A DNA stretch of 64,000 nt from an uncultured Ruminococcus sp. Lineage in GTDB: Bacteria > Bacillota > Clostridia > Oscillospirales > Ruminococcaceae. The notes under the pieces are model-generated. The model saw only the letters and a list, made by a program, of their open reading frames with translations. It searched no databases and was not told the DNA's origin. The position numbers and the translations under genes are program-made. Positions within the stretch are counted from its first letter, which is position 1, and each line of letters begins with the position of its first letter. Where the stretch lies: positions 55,500 through 119,499 of the forward strand of contig CASEUJ010000040.1 in the NCBI GenBank assembly GCA_949291125.1. Direction: 5' to 3'. Positions 26,164 to 36,457 of the stretch are shown piece by piece.

Positions 26164-27648
26164 TTAGAGGTTGGTATATCCCATCAAATACTTATCCACT
26201 TCTCTTGCAGCCTCTCTTCCCTCGCGGATCGCCCAGACGACTAAGGACTGTCCCCGATGCATGTCACCGGCAGTGAATACCTTATCCACATTGGTCTTAT
26301 ACTTACCTGCTTCTGTTGCCACGTTGGTGCGTGGGGTCACTTCAACGCCAAAAGCGTCTGTCACATAAGACTGTGCACCTAAGAAGCCTGCAGCAATCAG
26401 CACAAGATCGGCGTCTAAGATCTGTTCGCTGCCTGCGATCTCTTCCATCCGCATGCGCCCGGTCTTGGGGTCGTGTACCGACTGGAGCTTGATAGTCTCT
26501 ACCGCACGGACGTGATTTTTCTCGTCCTTGATAAAGCGCTTGACGGTGGTCTGATAGATTCTGGGATCCTGGCCGAATACCGCAATGGCTTCTTCCTGAC
26601 CATAGTCCGTCTTGCAGACCCGCGGCCACTCCGGCCACGGGTTGTTCTCCGCCCGAGTATCCGGCAATTTCGGCATCATCTCCAGCTGGATCACACTTTT
26701 GCAGCCATGGCGAATTGCCGTACCCACGCAGTCATTACCGGTGTCACCGCCGCCGATGACGATGACATTTTTATACTTAGCGCTAATGTAATACCCATCT
26801 GACAGGTTTGAATTGATCAGGCTCTTGGTAGTAGCTTTCAGGAAATCCACAGCGTAATAGATGCCGTCTGCTTCTCTGCCTTCTGCTACAATATTTCGAG
26901 GATTTGATGCACCACATGCCAAGATCACTGCGTCGTATTTTTCCAGCAGCTGTGCCGCCGAGATATCCTTGCCCACATCTACGCCAGTGCGGAATTTGAT
27001 TCCCTCTTCCTGCATCATATCCACACGGCGCTGTACCACAGTTTTCTCCAGCTTCATGTTGGGGATGCCATACATCAACAACCCACCTACACGATCTTCT
27101 CGTTCAAATACTGTAACACTATGACCACGCTTATTTAGCTGCAATGCTGCCGCCAATCCGGATGGACCCGAGCCGATGACAGCCACGCGCTTACCAGTGC
27201 GCACCTTCGGCGGATTTGGCTTCAGATGGCCGCTTTGGAATGCCTTTTCGATGATGGCATACTCGTTTTCCTTGACGGTAACCGGGTCATCATAAAGTCC
27301 ACAAGTGCATGCTTTTTCACACAACGCCGGGCAGACCCGGGATGTAAACTCCGGAAAACAGTTGGTCATCAAAAGGCGGTCTGCCGCTTCGTCCCAAAAT
27401 CCCTTATAGACTAGATCGTTCCATTCCGGGCAAAGGTTGTTCAAAGGACATCCTGACACCATGCCGAAAATCGGCTTGCCAGATTGACAAAACGGTACGC
27501 CACAATCCATACAGCGTGCACCTTGTTTCTGACGCTCCTCATCCGAGAGGGGCGTGTGAAATTCACGGTAGGTTTTGATGCGCTCCAGCGGTTCCTGGCC
27601 TACGTTTTCGACTCTCGCATAATCGAGAAATCCAGTTGCTTTTCCCAT
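26164..27648 (-). CDS. gltD: Glutamate synthase (NADPH) small subunit
   Basis: 494 residues. N-terminal Cys-rich FeS region (CMDCGVPFC, CPLNNLCPEWN, CPALCEKAC), then FAD-binding GSGPSGLAAALQLNKRGHSVTVFE (about 158-181) and NAD(P)H-binding GGGDTGNDCVGTAIRHG. C-terminal TAGDMHRGQSLVVWAIREGR closes the FAD site. The subunit feeds electrons from NAD(P)H to the large subunit, which makes two glutamates from glutamine and 2-oxoglutarate. It starts 15 bases after gltB, with GGGAGG ahead. Confidence 0.97.
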   Translation of the reverse strand: MGKATGFLDYARVENVGQEPLERIKTYREFHTPLSDEERQKQGARCMDCGVPFCQSGKPIFGMVSGCPLNNLCPEWNDLVYKGFWDEAADRLLMTNCFPEFTSRVCPALCEKACTCGLYDDPVTVKENEYAIIEKAFQSGHLKPNPPKVRTGKRVAVIGSGPSGLAAALQLNKRGHSVTVFEREDRVGGLLMYGIPNMKLEKTVVQRRVDMMQEEGIKFRTGVDVGKDISAAQLLEKYDAVILACGASNPRNIVAEGREADGIYYAVDFLKATTKSLINSNLSDGYYISAKYKNVIVIGGGDTGNDCVGTAIRHGCKSVIQLEMMPKLPDTRAENNPWPEWPRVCKTDYGQEEAIAVFGQDPRIYQTTVKRFIKDEKNHVRAVETIKLQSVHDPKTGRMRMEEIAGSEQILDADLVLIAAGFLGAQSYVTDAFGVEVTPRTNVATEAGKYKTNVDKVFTAGDMHRGQSLVVWAIREGREAAREVDKYLMGYTNL

Positions 27649-27663
27649 TGATTGTTCCTCCCG

Positions 27664-30600
27664 TTAATTTCTCGTATTGGCATAAAATGCTTCGATCTGT
27701 GCTTCTTCGCGGCTCATGCCTTCCTTTTCAAAGGCTGCGATGCTCTCCAGCATCTTTGCATAGTCGTGAGGTACGATCTTCTTGAACCGTGGCAGATATC
27801 CCTCAAAGTCAGCCAGAATCTCCTTACCCAGCTTAGAATCAGTCCACTGAACATGTTCTTCAATCAGAGCGCGCAGCTGTGCGATATCCTCCGGTCTGGT
27901 TACGCCGCTGAAACCAACCAGCGCCTTATTCAACTTGGTGTACAAATCATTCTCCACATCCAACACATAGGCAATACCGCCACTCATGCCGGCTGCAAAG
28001 TTCTTACCCACAACGCCCAGGATGACGGCACATCCGCCTGTCATGTATTCACATCCATGTTCACCCACGCCTTCGACAACAACATTTGCACCGGAGTTGC
28101 GAACGCAAAACCGTTCGCCGGCCACACCGTTGATAAACGCCTTACCACTTGTTGCACCGAACAGCGCTACATTACCAATGATGATATTTTCATTCTCCTT
28201 GAACTGAGAATTCTTCGGGGGGAATACAGCCAGCTTACCACCGGAGAGTCCCTTGCCGAAATAATCGTTACTGTCACCTTCCAGTGCCAGCGTCAATCCC
28301 TTCGGTATAAATGCGCCAAAGCTCTGGCCGCCGGCACCGTTGCAGTGTACCACAAAGGTATCGTCCTCTAATGTATTGTAATACTTCCGTGTGATCTCGG
28401 CGCCGAACAGGGTGCCCAGCGCACGATTCAAGTTGCTGACATTGATGCTGATTTCCTTGTGCTTCTTCTTTGCCAGTGCTTCCTTCATCTGGGGAATGAT
28501 CACCGTTTCGTCGATGGTATTTTCAAGTTTGAAGTCAAATACATCCTCCGGTACAAAGTGCATCTTCACTTCGCTATCCGGCTTTGCATATGGATTGGAT
28601 AAGATCCGCGACATATCTGTTTTGCCTTCCCGACTTTCTGCCGGATAGGGCTTCTGTACCAGTAGGTCGGAACGACCAATGAGTTCGTTCACCGTGTGGA
28701 TGCCCAGTTTTGCCATATATTCACGCATTTCCTGTGCAATAAAGCGCATGAAGTTGATGACATATTCCGGCTTGCCACGAAAGCGCTTGCGTAGTTCTGG
28801 ATTCTGTGTAGCAACGCCAGCCGGACAAGTATCCAGATTGCAGACACGCATCATCACGCAGCCCATGGTTACCAAAGGAGCAGTGGCAAAGCCGTATTCT
28901 TCTGCACCGAGAAGTGCTGCAATGACCACATCACGACCAGTCATCATCTTGCCGTCTGTTTCAATGACAACCTTCGAACGCAGGTTGTTCTGGATCAAAG
29001 TCTGATGCGTTTCTGCAAGACCCAGCTCCCACGGCAAACCTGCATTGTGGATTGAGCTTGCCGGAGCCGCACCCGTACCACCGTCATAGCCGGAAATCAG
29101 GATGACCCCAGCACCAGCCTTTGCAACGCCGGCAGCGATTGTGCCAACACCTGCTTCCGATACCAGCTTGACAGAAATCCGCGCCTTCTTATTGGCATTT
29201 TTCAAGTCATAGATCAACTGTGCCAGATCTTCGATGGAGTAAATATCGTGGTGCGGCGGGGGCGAGATCAGTGCCACGCCCGGGGTAGAATGACGCGTCT
29301 TTGCAATCCATGGATATACCTTCTTGGCCGGCAGATGACCACCTTCGCCGGGCTTTGCACCCTGTGCCATCTTGATCTGAATCTCCTTGGCAGAGGTAAG
29401 ATACTTGGAAGTAACGCCAAATCGTCCCGACGCCACCTGCTTGATGGCAGAACACTTATCTACGGCGCTGCCTGAGGTAACAATGCGTTCTAGGTCTTCA
29501 CCACCTTCACCGCTATTGGACTTACCGCCGATGCGGTTCATGGCGATCGCCATACATTCATGAGCCTCCTGAGAAATCGAGCCATAGGACATAGCACCAG
29601 TCTTAAAGCGACGCATGATCGATTCTACGCTCTCTACTTCTTCCATAGGGATGCCGCCGTCCTCGTCGAACTTAAAGTCCAATGTACTACGCAGTGTAAT
29701 GTGGCGATTTTCTGCATTGACACAGGCGGAGTACTGTTTGAATAGATTATAGTCATCACGCCATGTTGCCTGCTGCAATAGGTGAATGGTTTCTGGATTA
29801 TAGAGGTGCTCTTCTTGATTGCTGCGTTCTTTGTGCCAGCCGATACTGCGCAGCCCTTCATCCATCCCCAGCTCATTGGGATCAAAGGCGCTCTCGTGCA
29901 TTTCCATGCTGCGTTTTGCAATATCATCCAGATCAATCCCACCGACACGACTTACTGTATCCGGGAAAAATTCATCAATGACGCTTTCACTGATGCCCAG
30001 TGCCTCAAAAATCTTTGAGCCCTGATAAGACTGAATGGTGGAAATGCCCATCTTGGATGCGATCTTGACGATACCAGATACCACGGCATCAATGTATGCC
30101 ATACTAGCCTGCGAATAGTCCTTATCCACAAGACCACGGTTGATCATGTCGTACAAGGTATCCAGTGCCAGATAAGGGTTAACAGCACTTGCGCCAAATC
30201 CCAGCAGTGTTGCAAAGTGATGTACTTCACACGGCTCTGCTGTTTCGACGATCAGCGAAATCGCGGTGTTCTTTCTGGTCTTGACCAGATAAGTTTCCAA
30301 TGCTGCCACCGCCAGCAGGGACGGGATCGCCAGATGATCTCGATCTACACCGCGGTCGGTGAGGATCAAGATTGTTGCGCCCTTTGCATGCGCCTCTTCT
30401 GCCTGATGGTAGAGATTCTCAATGGCATCATGGAGTGGCACATCCTTGGTGTAGAGCATGGAGATATCTGCAGTCTTCAGACCATCAATCTTCATATCCC
30501 GGATCTTCATCAAGTCCAGATTAGTCAGAATCGGATTGTTAACCTTCAATACGCGGCAGTTACGTTCTTCTTCCTTCAGAATATTGCCAGCAATACCAAG

Positions 30601-32232
30601 GTATACAGTCGTGTCGGTGATCACCGATTCCCGAATCGAATCGATCGGCGGATTGGTAACCTGTGCAAAAAGCTGTTTGAAATAATCGAACAGCGGCGGA
30701 TTCATCTTTGACATTGCCGGAACCGGCGTATCGGTACCCATCGCAGCAGTCGGTTCGCTGCCGTTAATCGCCATGGGCACAACTACGCTATACAGCGATT
30801 CATACGTATAGCCAAATGCACGCTGAAGCCGCAGCAGTTCTTCTCCGCCATGACGGAAGGGACGCTTGTTCGGGATCTTCAGCTCGCGCAGCTCGTACAA
30901 ATTGTGATCAAGCCACTCACCATAGGGCTGACGCTTTGCATAGTAATTCTTGATTGTATCATCATCAATGAGCTTGCCCTGTACGGTGTCTACCAACAGC
31001 ATTTTTCCCGGATGCAAACGCTCTTTCTTGATAATACTTTCCGGTGGGATGTCATCCAGTGCACCAACCTCAGAGGACAGAATCAGGTACCCGTCATTGG
31101 TTACATAGTACCGAGAGGGACGCAGACCGTTACGATCCAGCACGGCACCCATCACATCGCCATCTGTAAAGATAATGGAAGCAGGACCGTCCCAAGGCTC
31201 CATCATCGTTGCATAATACTGATAGAATGCACGCTTCTCACGACTCATGGTCGGGATATGCTGCCACGGTTCCGGAATGGTCATCATCACTGCCAGAGGC
31301 AGATCCATACCAGACATGGTCATAAATTCCAACGTGTTGTCCAGCCGTGCCGAGTCAGATCCCCGAACATCCAGCATCGGCAGGATGTCCTTCATCCGAG
31401 CATTGAGTGCGTCACAGTGAAGAATCGATTCACGGCTAAGCATCTTGTCCACATTACCGGTGATCGTGTTGATCTCGCCGTTGTGTACCATCATGCGGTT
31501 CGGATGAGAACGCTGCCAGCTAGGGTTCGTGTTGGTACTGAAACGCGAGTGCACGATGCCGATTGCCGAATGATAATCCGGGCTATTCAGGTCGTGGTAG
31601 AACAAACGCAGCTGGTTTACTAAAAACATACCTTTATACACAATCGTACGGCTGGAGCAGGATACCACATAAGTTAACTTATCACGCTTTTCGAATACCA
31701 TCCGCGCAATATACAGCTTACGGTCAAATTCCAGACCTTTGGCACAATCGTCTGGCTTCTTGATGAATGCCTGCATAATATGCGGCATGCTGTCAAGTGC
31801 CTTAGAACCAAGAACATCCGGATTTACCGGTACCTCGCGCCAGCCCAGAAGCTCTAAGTTTTCTTCTTTTAGAACCTCTTCAAAGGTCTGCATTGCCTTT
31901 TGATATTTTTCTTCCGACTGTGGAAAAAAGAACATGCCAATTCCGTATTCTCGCTTTCCGCCAATCCGAATGCCTGCCTCTTTCGCAACCTTTGAAAAAT
32001 AGGTGTGTGAAATCTGAAGCAGAATGCCGACACCGTCGCCGGTCTTTCCTTCGGCATCCTTTCCGGCTCTATGCTCCAGAGTTTCCACAATGCGTAGTGC
32101 ACTGTCCACTACCTTGCGGTCGGTTTCACCGTTCATGTTGACAACGGCACCGATACCGCAGTTTTCATGTTCAAAACGAGGATCGTACAAACCACTTTTT
32201 GCAAACGGCTCCTGATTTCTGTAGTTGTCCAT
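27664..32232 (-). CDS. gltB: Glutamate synthase large subunit
   Basis: 1522 residues from the ATG at 32232 (AAGGGAGAAG upstream; an in-frame start 81 bases earlier has no ribosome site). Residues 1-24 are a propeptide; Cys25 in HENCGIGAV becomes the N-terminal nucleophile of the glutaminase domain (25 to about 430). The central domain, the FMN/TIM-barrel synthase domain (SGYDGGTGAAP), the 3Fe-4S cluster cysteines (CVMMRVCNLDTCPAG) and the C-terminal GxGxG beta-helix follow in the usual order. It is the first gene of the GOGAT operon and is preceded by an ANTAR-type leader. Confidence 0.97.
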   Translation of the reverse strand: MDNYRNQEPFAKSGLYDPRFEHENCGIGAVVNMNGETDRKVVDSALRIVETLEHRAGKDAEGKTGDGVGILLQISHTYFSKVAKEAGIRIGGKREYGIGMFFFPQSEEKYQKAMQTFEEVLKEENLELLGWREVPVNPDVLGSKALDSMPHIMQAFIKKPDDCAKGLEFDRKLYIARMVFEKRDKLTYVVSCSSRTIVYKGMFLVNQLRLFYHDLNSPDYHSAIGIVHSRFSTNTNPSWQRSHPNRMMVHNGEINTITGNVDKMLSRESILHCDALNARMKDILPMLDVRGSDSARLDNTLEFMTMSGMDLPLAVMMTIPEPWQHIPTMSREKRAFYQYYATMMEPWDGPASIIFTDGDVMGAVLDRNGLRPSRYYVTNDGYLILSSEVGALDDIPPESIIKKERLHPGKMLLVDTVQGKLIDDDTIKNYYAKRQPYGEWLDHNLYELRELKIPNKRPFRHGGEELLRLQRAFGYTYESLYSVVVPMAINGSEPTAAMGTDTPVPAMSKMNPPLFDYFKQLFAQVTNPPIDSIRESVITDTTVYLGIAGNILKEEERNCRVLKVNNPILTNLDLMKIRDMKIDGLKTADISMLYTKDVPLHDAIENLYHQAEEAHAKGATILILTDRGVDRDHLAIPSLLAVAALETYLVKTRKNTAISLIVETAEPCEVHHFATLLGFGASAVNPYLALDTLYDMINRGLVDKDYSQASMAYIDAVVSGIVKIASKMGISTIQSYQGSKIFEALGISESVIDEFFPDTVSRVGGIDLDDIAKRSMEMHESAFDPNELGMDEGLRSIGWHKERSNQEEHLYNPETIHLLQQATWRDDYNLFKQYSACVNAENRHITLRSTLDFKFDEDGGIPMEEVESVESIMRRFKTGAMSYGSISQEAHECMAIAMNRIGGKSNSGEGGEDLERIVTSGSAVDKCSAIKQVASGRFGVTSKYLTSAKEIQIKMAQGAKPGEGGHLPAKKVYPWIAKTRHSTPGVALISPPPHHDIYSIEDLAQLIYDLKNANKKARISVKLVSEAGVGTIAAGVAKAGAGVILISGYDGGTGAAPASSIHNAGLPWELGLAETHQTLIQNNLRSKVVIETDGKMMTGRDVVIAALLGAEEYGFATAPLVTMGCVMMRVCNLDTCPAGVATQNPELRKRFRGKPEYVINFMRFIAQEMREYMAKLGIHTVNELIGRSDLLVQKPYPAESREGKTDMSRILSNPYAKPDSEVKMHFVPEDVFDFKLENTIDETVIIPQMKEALAKKKHKEISINVSNLNRALGTLFGAEITRKYYNTLEDDTFVVHCNGAGGQSFGAFIPKGLTLALEGDSNDYFGKGLSGGKLAVFPPKNSQFKENENIIIGNVALFGATSGKAFINGVAGERFCVRNSGANVVVEGVGEHGCEYMTGGCAVILGVVGKNFAAGMSGGIAYVLDVENDLYTKLNKALVGFSGVTRPEDIAQLRALIEEHVQWTDSKLGKEILADFEGYLPRFKKIVPHDYAKMLESIAAFEKEGMSREEAQIEAFYANTRN

Positions 32233-32346
32233 GACCACTTCTCCCTTGCTGTAATTTCTAAACTTGTACCGACAGAAAGCACCACACGATTTTTCTGTGA
32301 GAACGCAAAGCACGCGCTTCTCTTGCCATCATGTACTTCAGAAAAC

Positions 32347-32429
32347 AAAAAACGCCCACAAAGCAGTAGAACTCTCTCCACTGTTTCATAAGCGCCATTG
32401 CTTTTATATTTCTACTCAATCCATCGAGT
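32347..32429 (-). promoter_or_regulatory. ANTAR-type two-hairpin antiterminator and terminator in gltB leader
   Basis: Minus-strand RNA order. Hairpin 1 (32429-32414): stem ACUCG/UGAGU around the hexaloop AUGGAU. Hairpin 2 (32403-32390): stem AAGC/GCUU around the hexaloop AAUGGC. Both loops have A at position 1 and G at position 4, the rule for RNA sites of ANTAR antiterminator proteins. A terminator follows (32396-32353, then six U at 32352-32347). Its 5' arm, GGCGCUU, reuses the loop and 3' arm of hairpin 2, so hairpin 2 and the terminator exclude each other. I infer that an ANTAR response regulator, not in this window, promotes gltB read-through. Confidence 0.75.
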
Positions 32430-32443
32430 TTTATGATATGTTT

Positions 32444-32472
32444 ATTATACCGCATCTTATGCTAGTTGTCAA
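32444..32472 (-). promoter_or_regulatory. Promoter of gltB-gltD
   Basis: Minus strand TTGACA (32467-32472), 17 bp spacer, TATAAT (32444-32449): full consensus. It gives a leader of about 200 bases containing the ANTAR-type element. Confidence 0.9.
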
Positions 32473-32737: not shown

Positions 32738-33643
32738 ATGAAAAAGACGATATCAGCATTGCTGTGCGCCGGTATTTTCTGCTATTCTATCGCACTATCA
32801 CCTTGGGCTGTTCTTGCTGCAGAAAACGCCTCTGACATTCCCGTTGTCATTATGGATAAAAGCAGTGCTTTATATTATGAAGTACAAAATAGCGATGGCA
32901 CAACTTCGTTGCGGCTTTTGCCAGAGAGTCAGATCACTGGCGAAGTCGCGATCACGGTATATGATTATCCGATCCACGTTGTGATCACACGGCAATCTTC
33001 AGAAAGGCCATATGTCTATTATGAAACTGACCTTGCGCCGCAGGAAGGTTCAAACGCAACAGAATACGTTTTTTTATTGGATTATTCAGAGCTGCCGAAA
33101 AATCCATCCCATTTTGACCAGACCTATACGGCAGATTTTTTATCCGGCATATACAGCTCCTCTTACTCCATTGAGATCAGCGTTCCTCAAAACAAAGGCA
33201 ATGCAGCTTATACGGAATCCAGCATGCTGATCGCAGATTATCACACAGAAAGTGATGTCACCGGCAAAACACGATACCAATACACAGTTTCATTTGCACA
33301 AGAAGATGTTTCACCGATCACGGTTACAGAAAACGACGCTGTTATCACCGATGGTTCTGCCACACTGGATCGTCAGATTCAATTTTTATGGAGCCCCTAC
33401 ACACTCGGCGATGTAGATGAAAACGGCATTATCAACCTGTCAGATGCCTATACGATTTTGACATACTACACAGAGGAAGCTGCAACCGGTTCATTACCCG
33501 AAGGCGCGAATTTTAAAGCGGCAGATGTCAATGGAGATGAAACGATTACCATTTTTGATGCGTTTGCAACTCTGACTTATTATGCAAAGGCTTCTGCTGG
33601 TTACAAACTAACATTAGAACAAATTGTGGAAGAAATGTCATAA
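32738..33643 (+). CDS. Secreted dockerin-containing protein of unknown function
   Basis: 301 residues. Signal peptide about 1-27 (cleavage near VLAAEN). Residues 30-220 form a beta-rich module that I do not recognise, with no glycoside hydrolase motif. The C-terminus is a dockerin: GDVDENGIINLSDAYTILTYY and ADVNGDETITIFDAFATLTYY, each a calcium loop plus helix, with Asp-Ala-Tyr/Phe at the usual recognition positions. It should attach to a cellulosome scaffold or cell-surface cohesin. Own promoter and a very strong terminator, so a single-gene unit. Role unknown; binding or structural functions are possible. Confidence 0.85.
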   Translation: MKKTISALLCAGIFCYSIALSPWAVLAAENASDIPVVIMDKSSALYYEVQNSDGTTSLRLLPESQITGEVAITVYDYPIHVVITRQSSERPYVYYETDLAPQEGSNATEYVFLLDYSELPKNPSHFDQTYTADFLSGIYSSSYSIEISVPQNKGNAAYTESSMLIADYHTESDVTGKTRYQYTVSFAQEDVSPITVTENDAVITDGSATLDRQIQFLWSPYTLGDVDENGIINLSDAYTILTYYTEEAATGSLPEGANFKAADVNGDETITIFDAFATLTYYAKASAGYKLTLEQIVEEMS

Positions 33644-33735: not shown

Positions 33736-35697
33736 TTATTCTTCGTCTTCGCCTTCAAATTCGTCATCCTGGTCATCCAGAAGTGCACGCATGGAAATCG
33801 AAATACGCTTATTCTCAATATCGATATCGATGATCTTAACATCGACTTTGTCGCCGATCGAAACCACATCCTTGACATTTTCAACACGTCTATCAGCCAG
33901 CTGCGAAATATGAATCAGACCATCCACGCCGTCCATGATCTGTGCAAACGCGCCAAACGGTGTGATCGAAACAATGGTAGCTGTTACAACATCGCCAACA
34001 TGATATGTAGCCTTGAACTTCTCCCACGGGTTATCCTCAGCCTTCTTATAACCCAGAGAAATGCGGTTATTTTCGCGATCGAGATCCTTGATATAAACCT
34101 CAATATAATCGCCGACATTGACAACTTCGCTCGGATGCTTGATGCGCTTCCAAGACAATTCAGAGATATGAACCATACCATCAATACCGCCCAGATCTAC
34201 GAATGCACCATAGCTGGTCAGCGACTTCACTTCGCCCTTATAGGTCTTGCCGACTTCTGCGGTCTCCCAGAACGCTTCTCTTGCCGCATCCTTCTCCGCC
34301 TTGATGACAGCCTTGATCGATCCAACAGCTCTTCTGCGGTGTTCGTTGACTTCAAGGATGATAAAACGCTGGGTTGTTTTCACTAGAGAATCCATCTCTG
34401 CGCCACGCGGCAAACCGCTCTGCGATGCCGGGATAAATACGCGAACGCCCGCATAACGGATGATCACACCGCCCTTGACTACGGCACTAACGGTGCCCTC
34501 CAGTACAGTCTTTTCCTCATAGGCTTTCACAATCTCTTCAAAGCCCTTGATCTCGTCCACTTTCTTTTTCGAAAGTGTGACAATGCCTTCCTGATCATTA
34601 ATTTTGGTAACAATGAGATCAAGTTCATCACCAATGGAAACGACATCTTCCGGCTTTTTGCCAGGATCATCTGTCAGTTCACTCAGCGGCACATAACCAG
34701 TGTGCTTGGTTCCGATATCCACAATTGCCTCAGTGTTGTTCAGTGAACAAATGGTACCCTTTACGCGCTCTCCTGTATGTATTTTTTTGAAGGACTGATC
34801 CAATGCTTCTTCGAAGTTGATATCCTCCTCCAGATTATTGTTTTCCATAATTTCAGTCATAGTTTGTTGAACCTCCTTAATGATATGCGCCGGTGTGGAC
34901 GCGCCGGCAGTAATCCCGATCTTCTCGGCATTACGTAGGTCTAAGGTGTAAAGCTCGTCCGAATTCTCAATATGATAAGTCGTGCAGTTCTGATTGCAAA
35001 CGTGAAACAATTTCACAGTGTTCGAACTGTGTCTGCCGCCCACAACGACCATCAGATCAGACTGGCGGGAAAGCTTGTCTGCATCAGATTGCCGCACCTG
35101 TGTTGCGTGACAAATTGTATCATAAACCATAATATTCGGGTCGTCCTTAGGAAGAAGCCCTAAACACTTATCCCATACTAATATATTATACGTGGTTTGC
35201 GCAACAATTGCAAGCTTTTTGTATGATCTCCATAATTTTTTTTGAAAAAAAAGGTTTAGTGCTCTTTCGTCTTCGAAAACAAAGCAATTCCCCTTACAAT
35301 GCCCAACAATTGCCTCAACTTCCGGATGTGTACGATCTCCGGCGATCAGGACAAAATCGCCCTGTTGCGTATGCTTCTCCACAATCCGGTGAATTTTTGC
35401 CACAAACGGACAGGTCGCATCCACATAGGGGTTCCCCAAACATTCCAACTTTTGATATACATCTGCGCTGACGCCGTGCGAGCGGATAACTACACACTCT
35501 CCGGGTTTTAGTTCAGATACATCCTGTATAATGCGTGCCCCTTTCCGAGTGAGGTCATCCACAACATTCTGGTTATGGATGATGGGGCCGAGCGTTGCAA
35601 CCGCTTTATTTTGTTCCAGCGCCTTATAGCAGAGTTTGACAGCGCGATCTACGCCAAAGCAAAATCCAGCAGAATCTGCCACTCGAATCTGAGCCAT
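33736..35697 (-). CDS. IspH fused to ribosomal protein S1 domains
   Basis: 653 residues from the ATG at 35697 (GGAGGAATG upstream, 4 bp after plsC). Residues 1-285: 4-hydroxy-3-methylbut-2-enyl diphosphate reductase, last step of the MEP isoprenoid pathway, with the 4Fe-4S cysteines in GFCFG (C13), DATCP and DTICHATQ, and GGRHSSNT. Residues ~310-635: four S1 RNA-binding repeats (VKGTICSLNN..., LEGTVSAVV..., YKGEVKSLTSYGAFVDLGGIDGMVHISEL, VTATIVSITPFGAF). This fusion is common in Clostridia, where it supplies both IspH and S1 activity. The C-terminus is very acidic. Confidence 0.95.
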   Translation of the reverse strand: MAQIRVADSAGFCFGVDRAVKLCYKALEQNKAVATLGPIIHNQNVVDDLTRKGARIIQDVSELKPGECVVIRSHGVSADVYQKLECLGNPYVDATCPFVAKIHRIVEKHTQQGDFVLIAGDRTHPEVEAIVGHCKGNCFVFEDERALNLFFQKKLWRSYKKLAIVAQTTYNILVWDKCLGLLPKDDPNIMVYDTICHATQVRQSDADKLSRQSDLMVVVGGRHSSNTVKLFHVCNQNCTTYHIENSDELYTLDLRNAEKIGITAGASTPAHIIKEVQQTMTEIMENNNLEEDINFEEALDQSFKKIHTGERVKGTICSLNNTEAIVDIGTKHTGYVPLSELTDDPGKKPEDVVSIGDELDLIVTKINDQEGIVTLSKKKVDEIKGFEEIVKAYEEKTVLEGTVSAVVKGGVIIRYAGVRVFIPASQSGLPRGAEMDSLVKTTQRFIILEVNEHRRRAVGSIKAVIKAEKDAAREAFWETAEVGKTYKGEVKSLTSYGAFVDLGGIDGMVHISELSWKRIKHPSEVVNVGDYIEVYIKDLDRENNRISLGYKKAEDNPWEKFKATYHVGDVVTATIVSITPFGAFAQIMDGVDGLIHISQLADRRVENVKDVVSIGDKVDVKIIDIDIENKRISISMRALLDDQDDEFEGEDEE

Positions 35698-35701
35698 ATG
35701 A

Positions 35702-36457
35702 TCATTCCTCCGTCTGTCCGGCATCTGTCGATGCCTTTGCCTGCTGTGCATTTTGATTCCGCGCCTGTTGTCGACGTTCTTGTTCGATCTCAATCGACGT
35801 CCGCTTTCTGGGCGTGTCATGCAGAATCGGGAATGGCGGATCTTCTTCTACCATGGTGCGGATTGCATCCATAATATCTTTTTTCATTGCACGCATCTCA
35901 TGGGGATTGGAATTTTCATCGAGCCCATAGTCCGCCGCATACAACGGCTTTCCCACACGTACACAGATACGACTTCGGAAGTGAAGATTATTCGAATCAA
36001 ACACCAGCCCGATGGGAACGACCGGTTTGCCACTGCGTGCCGCAAGAACGCAAACACCGCTTTTGCCCCTGCCGACCTTGCCGTCGGTGTGGCGTGTGCC
36101 CTCCGGAAAGATCGTCAAATAACGGCGCTTTTCCAAACGACGGGTCGCTTCACTGAGCATATCATACGACGGATCTTTATGATTGGCAGTCGGGAAAGCG
36201 CCCATAAAGCGAATAAAACCGCCAAACACGGGATTGCGAAACAATTCTTCCTTTGCAATATAATTGAATGGATGCGGTGCCGCCATTGCAACCAAGACCG
36301 GATCGAGAAAACTGCGGTGATTGGAAGCAAAAATGACCGCCGTATTCTTCGGTACATTTTCTCGCCCCTCAAAAGAGATCCGGTAATAGAATAAAAACAG
36401 AAATCGTACAATGTAATAAGCAATACGGTAAAAGAATGCGACAATATAATATCCCAA
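35702..36457 (-). CDS. plsC: 1-acyl-sn-glycerol-3-phosphate acyltransferase
   Basis: 251 residues starting at a TTG (36457) with AGGAGG 8 bases ahead. N-terminal membrane helix, catalytic NHRSFLD (H-x4-D; about 46-52), and substrate-binding FPEGTRH (about 117-123). It adds the second acyl chain to lysophosphatidic acid in phospholipid synthesis. The tail beyond residue 225 is Gln/Arg-rich and not part of the enzyme core. It sits between cmk and ispH-S1, a conserved Clostridia order. Confidence 0.92.
   Translation of the reverse strand: MGYYIVAFFYRIAYYIVRFLFLFYYRISFEGRENVPKNTAVIFASNHRSFLDPVLVAMAAPHPFNYIAKEELFRNPVFGGFIRFMGAFPTANHKDPSYDMLSEATRRLEKRRYLTIFPEGTRHTDGKVGRGKSGVCVLAARSGKPVVPIGLVFDSNNLHFRSRICVRVGKPLYAADYGLDENSNPHEMRAMKKDIMDAIRTMVEEDPPFPILHDTPRKRTSIEIEQERRQQARNQNAQQAKASTDAGQTEE

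Follow-up and report, generated by a model that had tools for sequence, protein, structure and literature searches.

The window, by which we mean the whole 64-kb stretch of DNA that was analysed, carries on its minus strand a leader in front of gltB, which we located by inspection of the sequence. The mapped features are given below, where P1 and P2 are two small hairpins and R1 is a covariance model that we trained only on 48 gltB leaders.

32467..32472, minus strand: -35 hexamer TTGACA, from the sequence; part of the best-scoring promoter pair, with a 17-bp spacer
32444..32449, minus strand: -10 hexamer TATAAT, from the sequence, with a score of 12 of 12
32414..32429, minus strand: P1 hairpin ACUCG[AUGGAU]UGAGU (loop in brackets), closed by G-U, with A1 and G4, from sequence and folding
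32390..32403, minus strand: P2 antiterminator hairpin AAGC[AAUGGC]GCUU, an A1/G4 hexaloop closed by C-G, from sequence and relatives
32347..32400, minus strand: intrinsic terminator whose 5' arm re-uses the loop and 3' arm of P2, from sequence, covariation and folding
32342..32409, minus strand: match to covariance model R1 (44.7 bits, E 8.8e-6), which had this leader among its training sequences
32241..32246, minus strand: Shine-Dalgarno-like AGGGAG, from the sequence
27664..32232, minus strand: gltB, large subunit of glutamate synthase, the regulated gene (open reading frame)
26164..27648, minus strand: gltD-like small subunit (open reading frame; Pfam Fer4_20 and Pyr_redox_2)

Transcription would start near 32437. 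The gltB start codon is at 32232, and the product has the Pfam domains GATase_2, Glu_syn_central, Glu_synthase and GXGXG. The gltD-like gene lies 15 nt 3' of gltB and is presumably co-transcribed with it. The divergent neighbor of gltB (window 32738-33643, plus strand) has a product that looks secreted and contains a type I dockerin domain (Pfam, 29 bits), which suggests a cellulosome-bearing bacterium. Further along, at 33736-35820 on the minus strand, LytB/IspH is fused with four S1 domains in a single reading frame.

The initial annotation had described two hairpins with the hexaloops AUGGAU and AAUGGC, both with A at position 1 and G at position 4 (A1/G4), and both are present as described on the minus strand. 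It had also claimed that the second hairpin shares seven bases with a terminator ending in six U. That is what we see: GGCGCUU, the 3' part of P2, is common to P2 and the terminator stem, with the P2 hexaloop AAUGGC at 32399-32394 and the terminal UUUUUU at 32352-32347. The predicted folding energy is -3.0 kcal/mol for P2 and -22.3 kcal/mol for the terminator, and none of 200 shuffles equalled the terminator fold. Because P2 is weak and the terminator is strong, we took the default state to be off.

We collected 127 gltB loci from relatives and from named GTDB genomes, which left 122 distinct loci after five duplicates were dropped; the 122 still contain L077, L091 and a few others whose upstream sequence is short. 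A strict pattern for P2 was found in 54 of the 122 regions. A relaxed pattern asked for a 4-bp stem with the loop RANGRN, followed by a complementary 3' arm and then a U run; 76 regions matched it, against 6–13 in ten shuffled sets. Thus, when we looked for relatives without hexaloop or terminator, which the initial annotation had named as evidence against its claim, 76 of the 122 regions were found to keep both. The element is absent from the other 46, including those of the ANTAR-bearing relatives L058-L060. Both patterns fix loop bases, so we added a loop-free search last. It covered 120 regions (the 122 minus two of less than 60 bases) and found a hexaloop hairpin overlapping a terminator in 65 of them, against a mean of 2.3 in 20 shuffled sets. 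A1 and G4 were both present in 59 of these 65 loops, which were picked with no condition on the loop; A2 was present in 62, G4 in 63 and a C-G closing pair in 59, while position 3 takes all four bases.

For the alignment, 61 of the 76 leaders passed our filters (six named rows were removed by hand) and 48 of the 61 were aligned; the 13 left unaligned include near-duplicates and about five atypical leaders. In the 48 aligned leaders three of the four P2 pairs vary on both sides, with pairing itself a selection criterion, and six of the ten terminator pairs do so (69 cells vs 16 shuffled). Among 58 leaders picked without the stem criterion, the P2 stem was formed in 32, vs 11.9 in shuffles with a maximum of 19, and a one-base register ambiguity blurs this test. 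The columns of the P2 3' arm pair with both the P2 5' arm and the terminator 3' arm in the 48 leaders, and covariation with two partners in this way is characteristic of folds that exclude each other. P2 and the terminator occur in gltB leaders more than chance would give. Aligning related leaders, as the initial annotation had proposed, therefore found P2 and the terminator covarying and A1/G4 kept.

A search of the host genome for ANTAR domains, also proposed there, found one ANTAR protein (C16:17692-17853, 54.8 bits), so the genome is not ANTAR-free. The protein has a Response_reg domain (43 bits) and an ANTAR domain (52.9 bits). Its gene is directly after glnA, and glnA is a neighbor in 26 of the 31 ANTAR loci that we examined. 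We take this glnA-nitR arrangement to be that of the NitR system of Clostridium saccharobutylicum, for which the primary source is reportedly Stutz et al. 2007. Like NitR, the host protein is a receiver-like and ANTAR protein with its gene next to glnA; its targets, gltB among them, are predicted. A review describes NitR as an ANTAR protein that antiterminates GS/GOGAT genes when nitrogen is limiting (PMC6316151). The position of the phospho-acceptor Asp is Asn in 23 of the 31 aligned ANTAR proteins, including the host's; it is Asp in four (L004, L007, L017, L022) and another residue in the remaining four. By sequence, the nearest solved relatives are Rv1626 (1s8n) and EutV (6wsh/6ww6). We mapped the EutV contact residues (PMC8934654) onto the alignment ourselves, with a numbering shift of two, and obtained R142V, K143R, K147R, K149K, E160E and Y164H; the host protein thus has His where EutV has its loop-contact tyrosine, and Val in place of Arg142. 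We infer that this protein is the cognate regulator of the leader.

Matches to R1 follow the presence of ANTAR proteins. With genomes treated as independent, matches at E up to 0.004 occur in 46/73 ANTAR genomes vs 0/26 ANTAR-free genomes, and in 33/60 vs 0/26 when the training genomes are left out, also with genomes as independent units. The cut-off of 0.004 was picked after seeing the data; cut-offs of 0.05, 0.01 and 0.001 are also significant, and at 0.05 the counts are 57/73 vs 5/26, again with genomes treated as independent. An even sample of the class gave matches in 61/145 ANTAR genomes vs 5/146 without, uncorrected for phylogeny and completeness. The five class genomes with an R1 match and no ANTAR match are perhaps incomplete or the matches false. 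An ANTAR gene lies within 10 kb of 25 of 66 R1 matches. The presence of gltB (E up to 1e-20) itself tracks ANTAR in the first sample (24/73 ANTAR genomes vs 0/26 ANTAR-free), and ANTAR was present in all 50 genomes that were scanned out of 79 named gltB genomes, so this comparison does not discriminate leaders with the element from leaders without it.

Within the host genome as analysed (87% complete), R1 has 15 matches at E up to 10. There are two amt genes (ammonium transporters) and three P-II genes, which by position fall into three units: two amt-PII pairs and a P-II gene on its own. Each unit carries a match, so that matches precede both amt genes and the stand-alone P-II gene. These matches score low (17.6–25.5 bits, E 0.14–7.5) and rest on gene context. 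One of the pairs, at C18:165619-167259 (L174, L205, L207), is a single open frame of 591 codons and apparently encodes an Amt-P-II fusion protein. Of the other matches, one lies before a gene that fits the NCBI model 'tyramine oxidase subunit B', one before a gene for an AraC-type regulator and one before an FAD oxidoreductase gene 405 nt away. The host glnA leader is short and lacks the element. About eight of the 15 matches look false or unexplained, and those at terminators of the AAAGACGCTT...AAGCGTCTTT type and at a thioesterase gene are likely false. We observed that the palindromic, terminator-like repeat AAAGACGCTT...GAACTC...AAGCGTCTTT is matched by R1 on both strands, at L164/L167, L165/L171 and L169/L172 (host contigs C8, C37 and C22). 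In the part of the relatives' matches that we examined, R1 matches precede a class II glutamine amidotransferase protein, gdhA, glnA (glutamine synthetase I), GSIII and amt; others precede purA and genes for a dihydropyrimidinase and a class III aminotransferase. The class II glutamine amidotransferase was identified by Pfam in four loci and by the same N-terminal sequence in others, and we read it as a putative subunit of a split glutamate synthase (GOGAT).

We also looked at how far P2 is from the promoter, taking the best-scoring predicted promoters as the source of -10 boxes. Distances came from 35 of 44 model-match loci; the nine that were dropped had palindromic-type terminators or unrelated genes and were chosen after seeing them. 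P2 begins no more than 21 nt past the predicted -10 box in 21 of 28 model-match leaders of relatives and in 27 of 28 class-level leaders, and the commonest distance in both groups is 7–13 nt. By simple arithmetic, a start about 7 nt past the -10 box, a minimal P1 and a working linker need about 23 nt, so many relatives have no room for P1. In the host genome, two of seven plausible sites are close (10 and 12 nt, the latter at the second amt gene). At the other five, and in three further leaders of the genus, the distance is 35–67 nt, and P1 would fit there.

This bears on whether the leader works through a pair of hexaloops, as the initial annotation had it. In the canonical arrangement P1 recruits the dimer and P2 antiterminates, and P1 here could be lineage-specific and still working. 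Ramesh et al. 2012 defined the dual-hairpin ANTAR target, found both hairpins to be needed for eutP and gave 5–12 nt as the working linker in eut leaders (PMC3369931), and the published EutV work has both hairpins needed in vivo (PMC3369931, PMC8934654). The window's P1 has A1 and G4 and a linker of 10 nt to P2, inside that range, which is relevant only if P1 is used. A P1-like hairpin with a 5-bp stem is also uncommon for this leader (28 of 5000 shuffles), and the 40 nt between its -10 box and P2 leave enough room. However, judged by sequence comparison, P1 is not conserved, even within the genus. It is upstream of P2 in one of 76 leaders, the window's own, where 1.1 are expected. It is absent from the leader of the closest relative, L033, in which the first 201 residues are 95% identical. 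A looser count of an upstream A1/G4 hexaloop hairpin showed no clear excess (6/76 gltB leaders vs 3.3 expected), and in 26 other leaders, chosen after seeing them, there was no excess either (1/26 vs 1.2). The 56 nt upstream of P2 at six other plausible sites of the host genome contain no A1/G4 hexaloop hairpin, and the bare dual A1/G4 pattern occurs four times in the 64-kb window, its own site included. The P1 loop has U2 and a G-U closing pair, whereas all 48 aligned P2 hairpins have A2 (a condition of selection) and C-G, and the predicted minimum-energy fold of P1 is a tetraloop in which an A1-U6 pair closes the loop. We consider a working P1 unlikely. The two-hexaloop architecture is unsupported, given the lack of conservation of P1 and the missing space for it in many relatives; what stands of the earlier interpretation is an antitermination leader of the ANTAR type with P2 and the terminator.

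Two other explanations dispense with the ANTAR protein altogether. The element might be an ordinary constitutive terminator, unregulated, with loop bases conserved only through pairing in the terminator stem, and it is true that the loop pairs within the terminator and that A1 and A2 pair with the U run. We find this very improbable: the P2 stem varies with its pairing kept and is formed well above shuffles in leaders picked without it, A1, A2 and G4 are nearly fixed while position 3 is free, and the element occurs at nitrogen genes. It might instead be a real attenuator under other control, such as an RNA-binding protein, a small RNA or transcription speed, and the ANTAR co-occurrence would then reflect shared nitrogen physiology. 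The five class genomes with R1 matches and no ANTAR match fit this, as does the way gltB itself tracks ANTAR. Against it, the 59 of 65 loops that were not selected for their bases fit the published ANTAR requirement (A1, G4 and closing pairs; PMC3369931), and many of the 25 matches close to ANTAR genes are in genomes without this gltB. In addition, no Rfam family reached its gathering score in the leader, where the best match, at 16 bits, is at chance level. We regard such an attenuator as quite improbable.

We believe, with a probability of roughly 0.78, that single hexaloops, P2 of gltB among them, are the sites through which a NitR-like ANTAR protein antiterminates a nitrogen regulon, and that P1 is dispensable or incidental. 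The claim of an ANTAR-type antitermination leader thus appears sound, given the ANTAR protein in the genome, the recurrent and covarying P2/terminator with A1/G4, and the element at other nitrogen genes. This reading starts from the sequences themselves, the two recurrent, covarying and exclusive folds, the predicted regulon and the ANTAR co-occurrence, and binding, read-through, the nitrogen signal and its sensing by the pseudo-receiver would follow from them as below.

We predict that transcription of gltBD begins about 35 nt ahead of P2. The strong terminator at 32400-32347 would form by default, and RNA polymerase would stop before gltB. When nitrogen is short, the single ANTAR protein (pseudo-receiver and ANTAR, NitR-like) would bind the P2 hexaloop AAUGGC and hold the weak 4-bp hairpin, so that the 5' arm of the terminator stays occupied and transcription passes. 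The two amt operons and the P-II gene that stands apart would be controlled by this protein in the same manner. It would bind a single hexaloop in place of the canonical pair, and in many relatives this hexaloop would lie at the extreme 5' terminus of the transcript; in the window species P1 may be dispensable or incidental. By analogy, a pseudo-receiver suggests control by a partner protein, as AmiC controls AmiR. In Pseudomonas aeruginosa, AmiR is an ANTAR regulator with a non-phosphorylated pseudo-receiver, under its partner AmiC, which senses amides (PMC3369936). The host protein is like AmiR in being an ANTAR regulator with a pseudo-receiver of the non-phosphorylated type, whereas its partner is only a candidate. 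The pseudo-receiver would sense nitrogen perhaps through glutamine synthetase or P-II, which are candidate partners by neighborhood and regulon only.

Among known systems, a close one is EutV of the Enterococcus faecalis eut operon. As there, an A1/G4 hexaloop with a conserved closing pair excludes a terminator, and the regulator is a receiver-like domain with ANTAR (PMC3369931, PMC8934654). EutV has two hairpins and a phosphorylated receiver, in contrast to the one conserved hairpin found here, often at the 5' end of the RNA, and the Asn that replaces the phospho-Asp. In the work on the EutV-RNA structure, the smallest motif for binding was redefined as one hexaloop, but P1 was still regarded as necessary for recruitment, and further work on single hexaloops was called for (PMC8934654).

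ANTAR control of GOGAT is not new. Nitrogen genes are among those preceded by matches in Ramesh et al. 2012, for example the glutamate synthase gene of Desulfotomaculum reducens, and these cases are of the same gene class and mechanism class as the window leader (PMC3369931); the NitR review describes such control as well (PMC6316151). Their search required dual hairpins, however, and Ruminococcus is absent from the main text of that paper (PMC3369931). In the open-access literature we found no description of single-hexaloop antiterminators of a clostridial nitrogen regulon. As far as we have seen, the use of a single hairpin, often a 5'-terminal one, is new, and so is the breadth of this form. 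We also lean, with some reserve, toward a wider version, in which a glnA-linked, phosphorylation-independent ANTAR protein runs the nitrogen regulon across the Clostridia via single hexaloops at the extreme 5' end, without a recruitment hairpin. The hairpin would then be captured by the protein on emerging from the polymerase. If this is true, ANTAR antitermination can work without the dual-hairpin relay proposed for EutV. The single-hexaloop reading offers a testable answer to the question raised in PMC8934654 of how far single hexaloops suffice for ANTAR and whether they can work on a moving polymerase, and it proposes a common control, at the RNA level, of ammonium uptake and assimilation in many Clostridia. 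R1 can find targets that searches requiring two hairpins would miss.

Second A1/G4 hexaloops do occur at other places in gltB leaders. There is a small excess inside the terminator (6/76 vs 1.8), and they are found after the terminator in 12/76 vs 3.9, mostly in leaders of the R. flavefaciens type. In that type, a second AANGRN hexaloop hairpin follows the terminator and in most cases directly precedes the ribosome binding site; L080, L082, L100, L103, L107, L129, L133 and others have it immediately upstream of the Shine-Dalgarno sequence of gltB. Counted as AANGRN hairpins after the terminator, these were seen in 15/74 leaders vs a mean of 0.8 in shuffles; the 15 include L127, which looks like a chance case. 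Ten of these leaders come from genomes that were scanned, and each of those genomes has two ANTAR genes, an association that is confounded because the clade is narrow. From its position, this hairpin could be a translational ANTAR site. A different arrangement is seen in L045 (G072), where two A1/G4 hexaloop hairpins, AAGGGU and AAGGUG, stand nine bases apart, between about 115 and 75 nt ahead of the gltB match; here it is the first that sits in the terminator arm, which inverts the canonical order.
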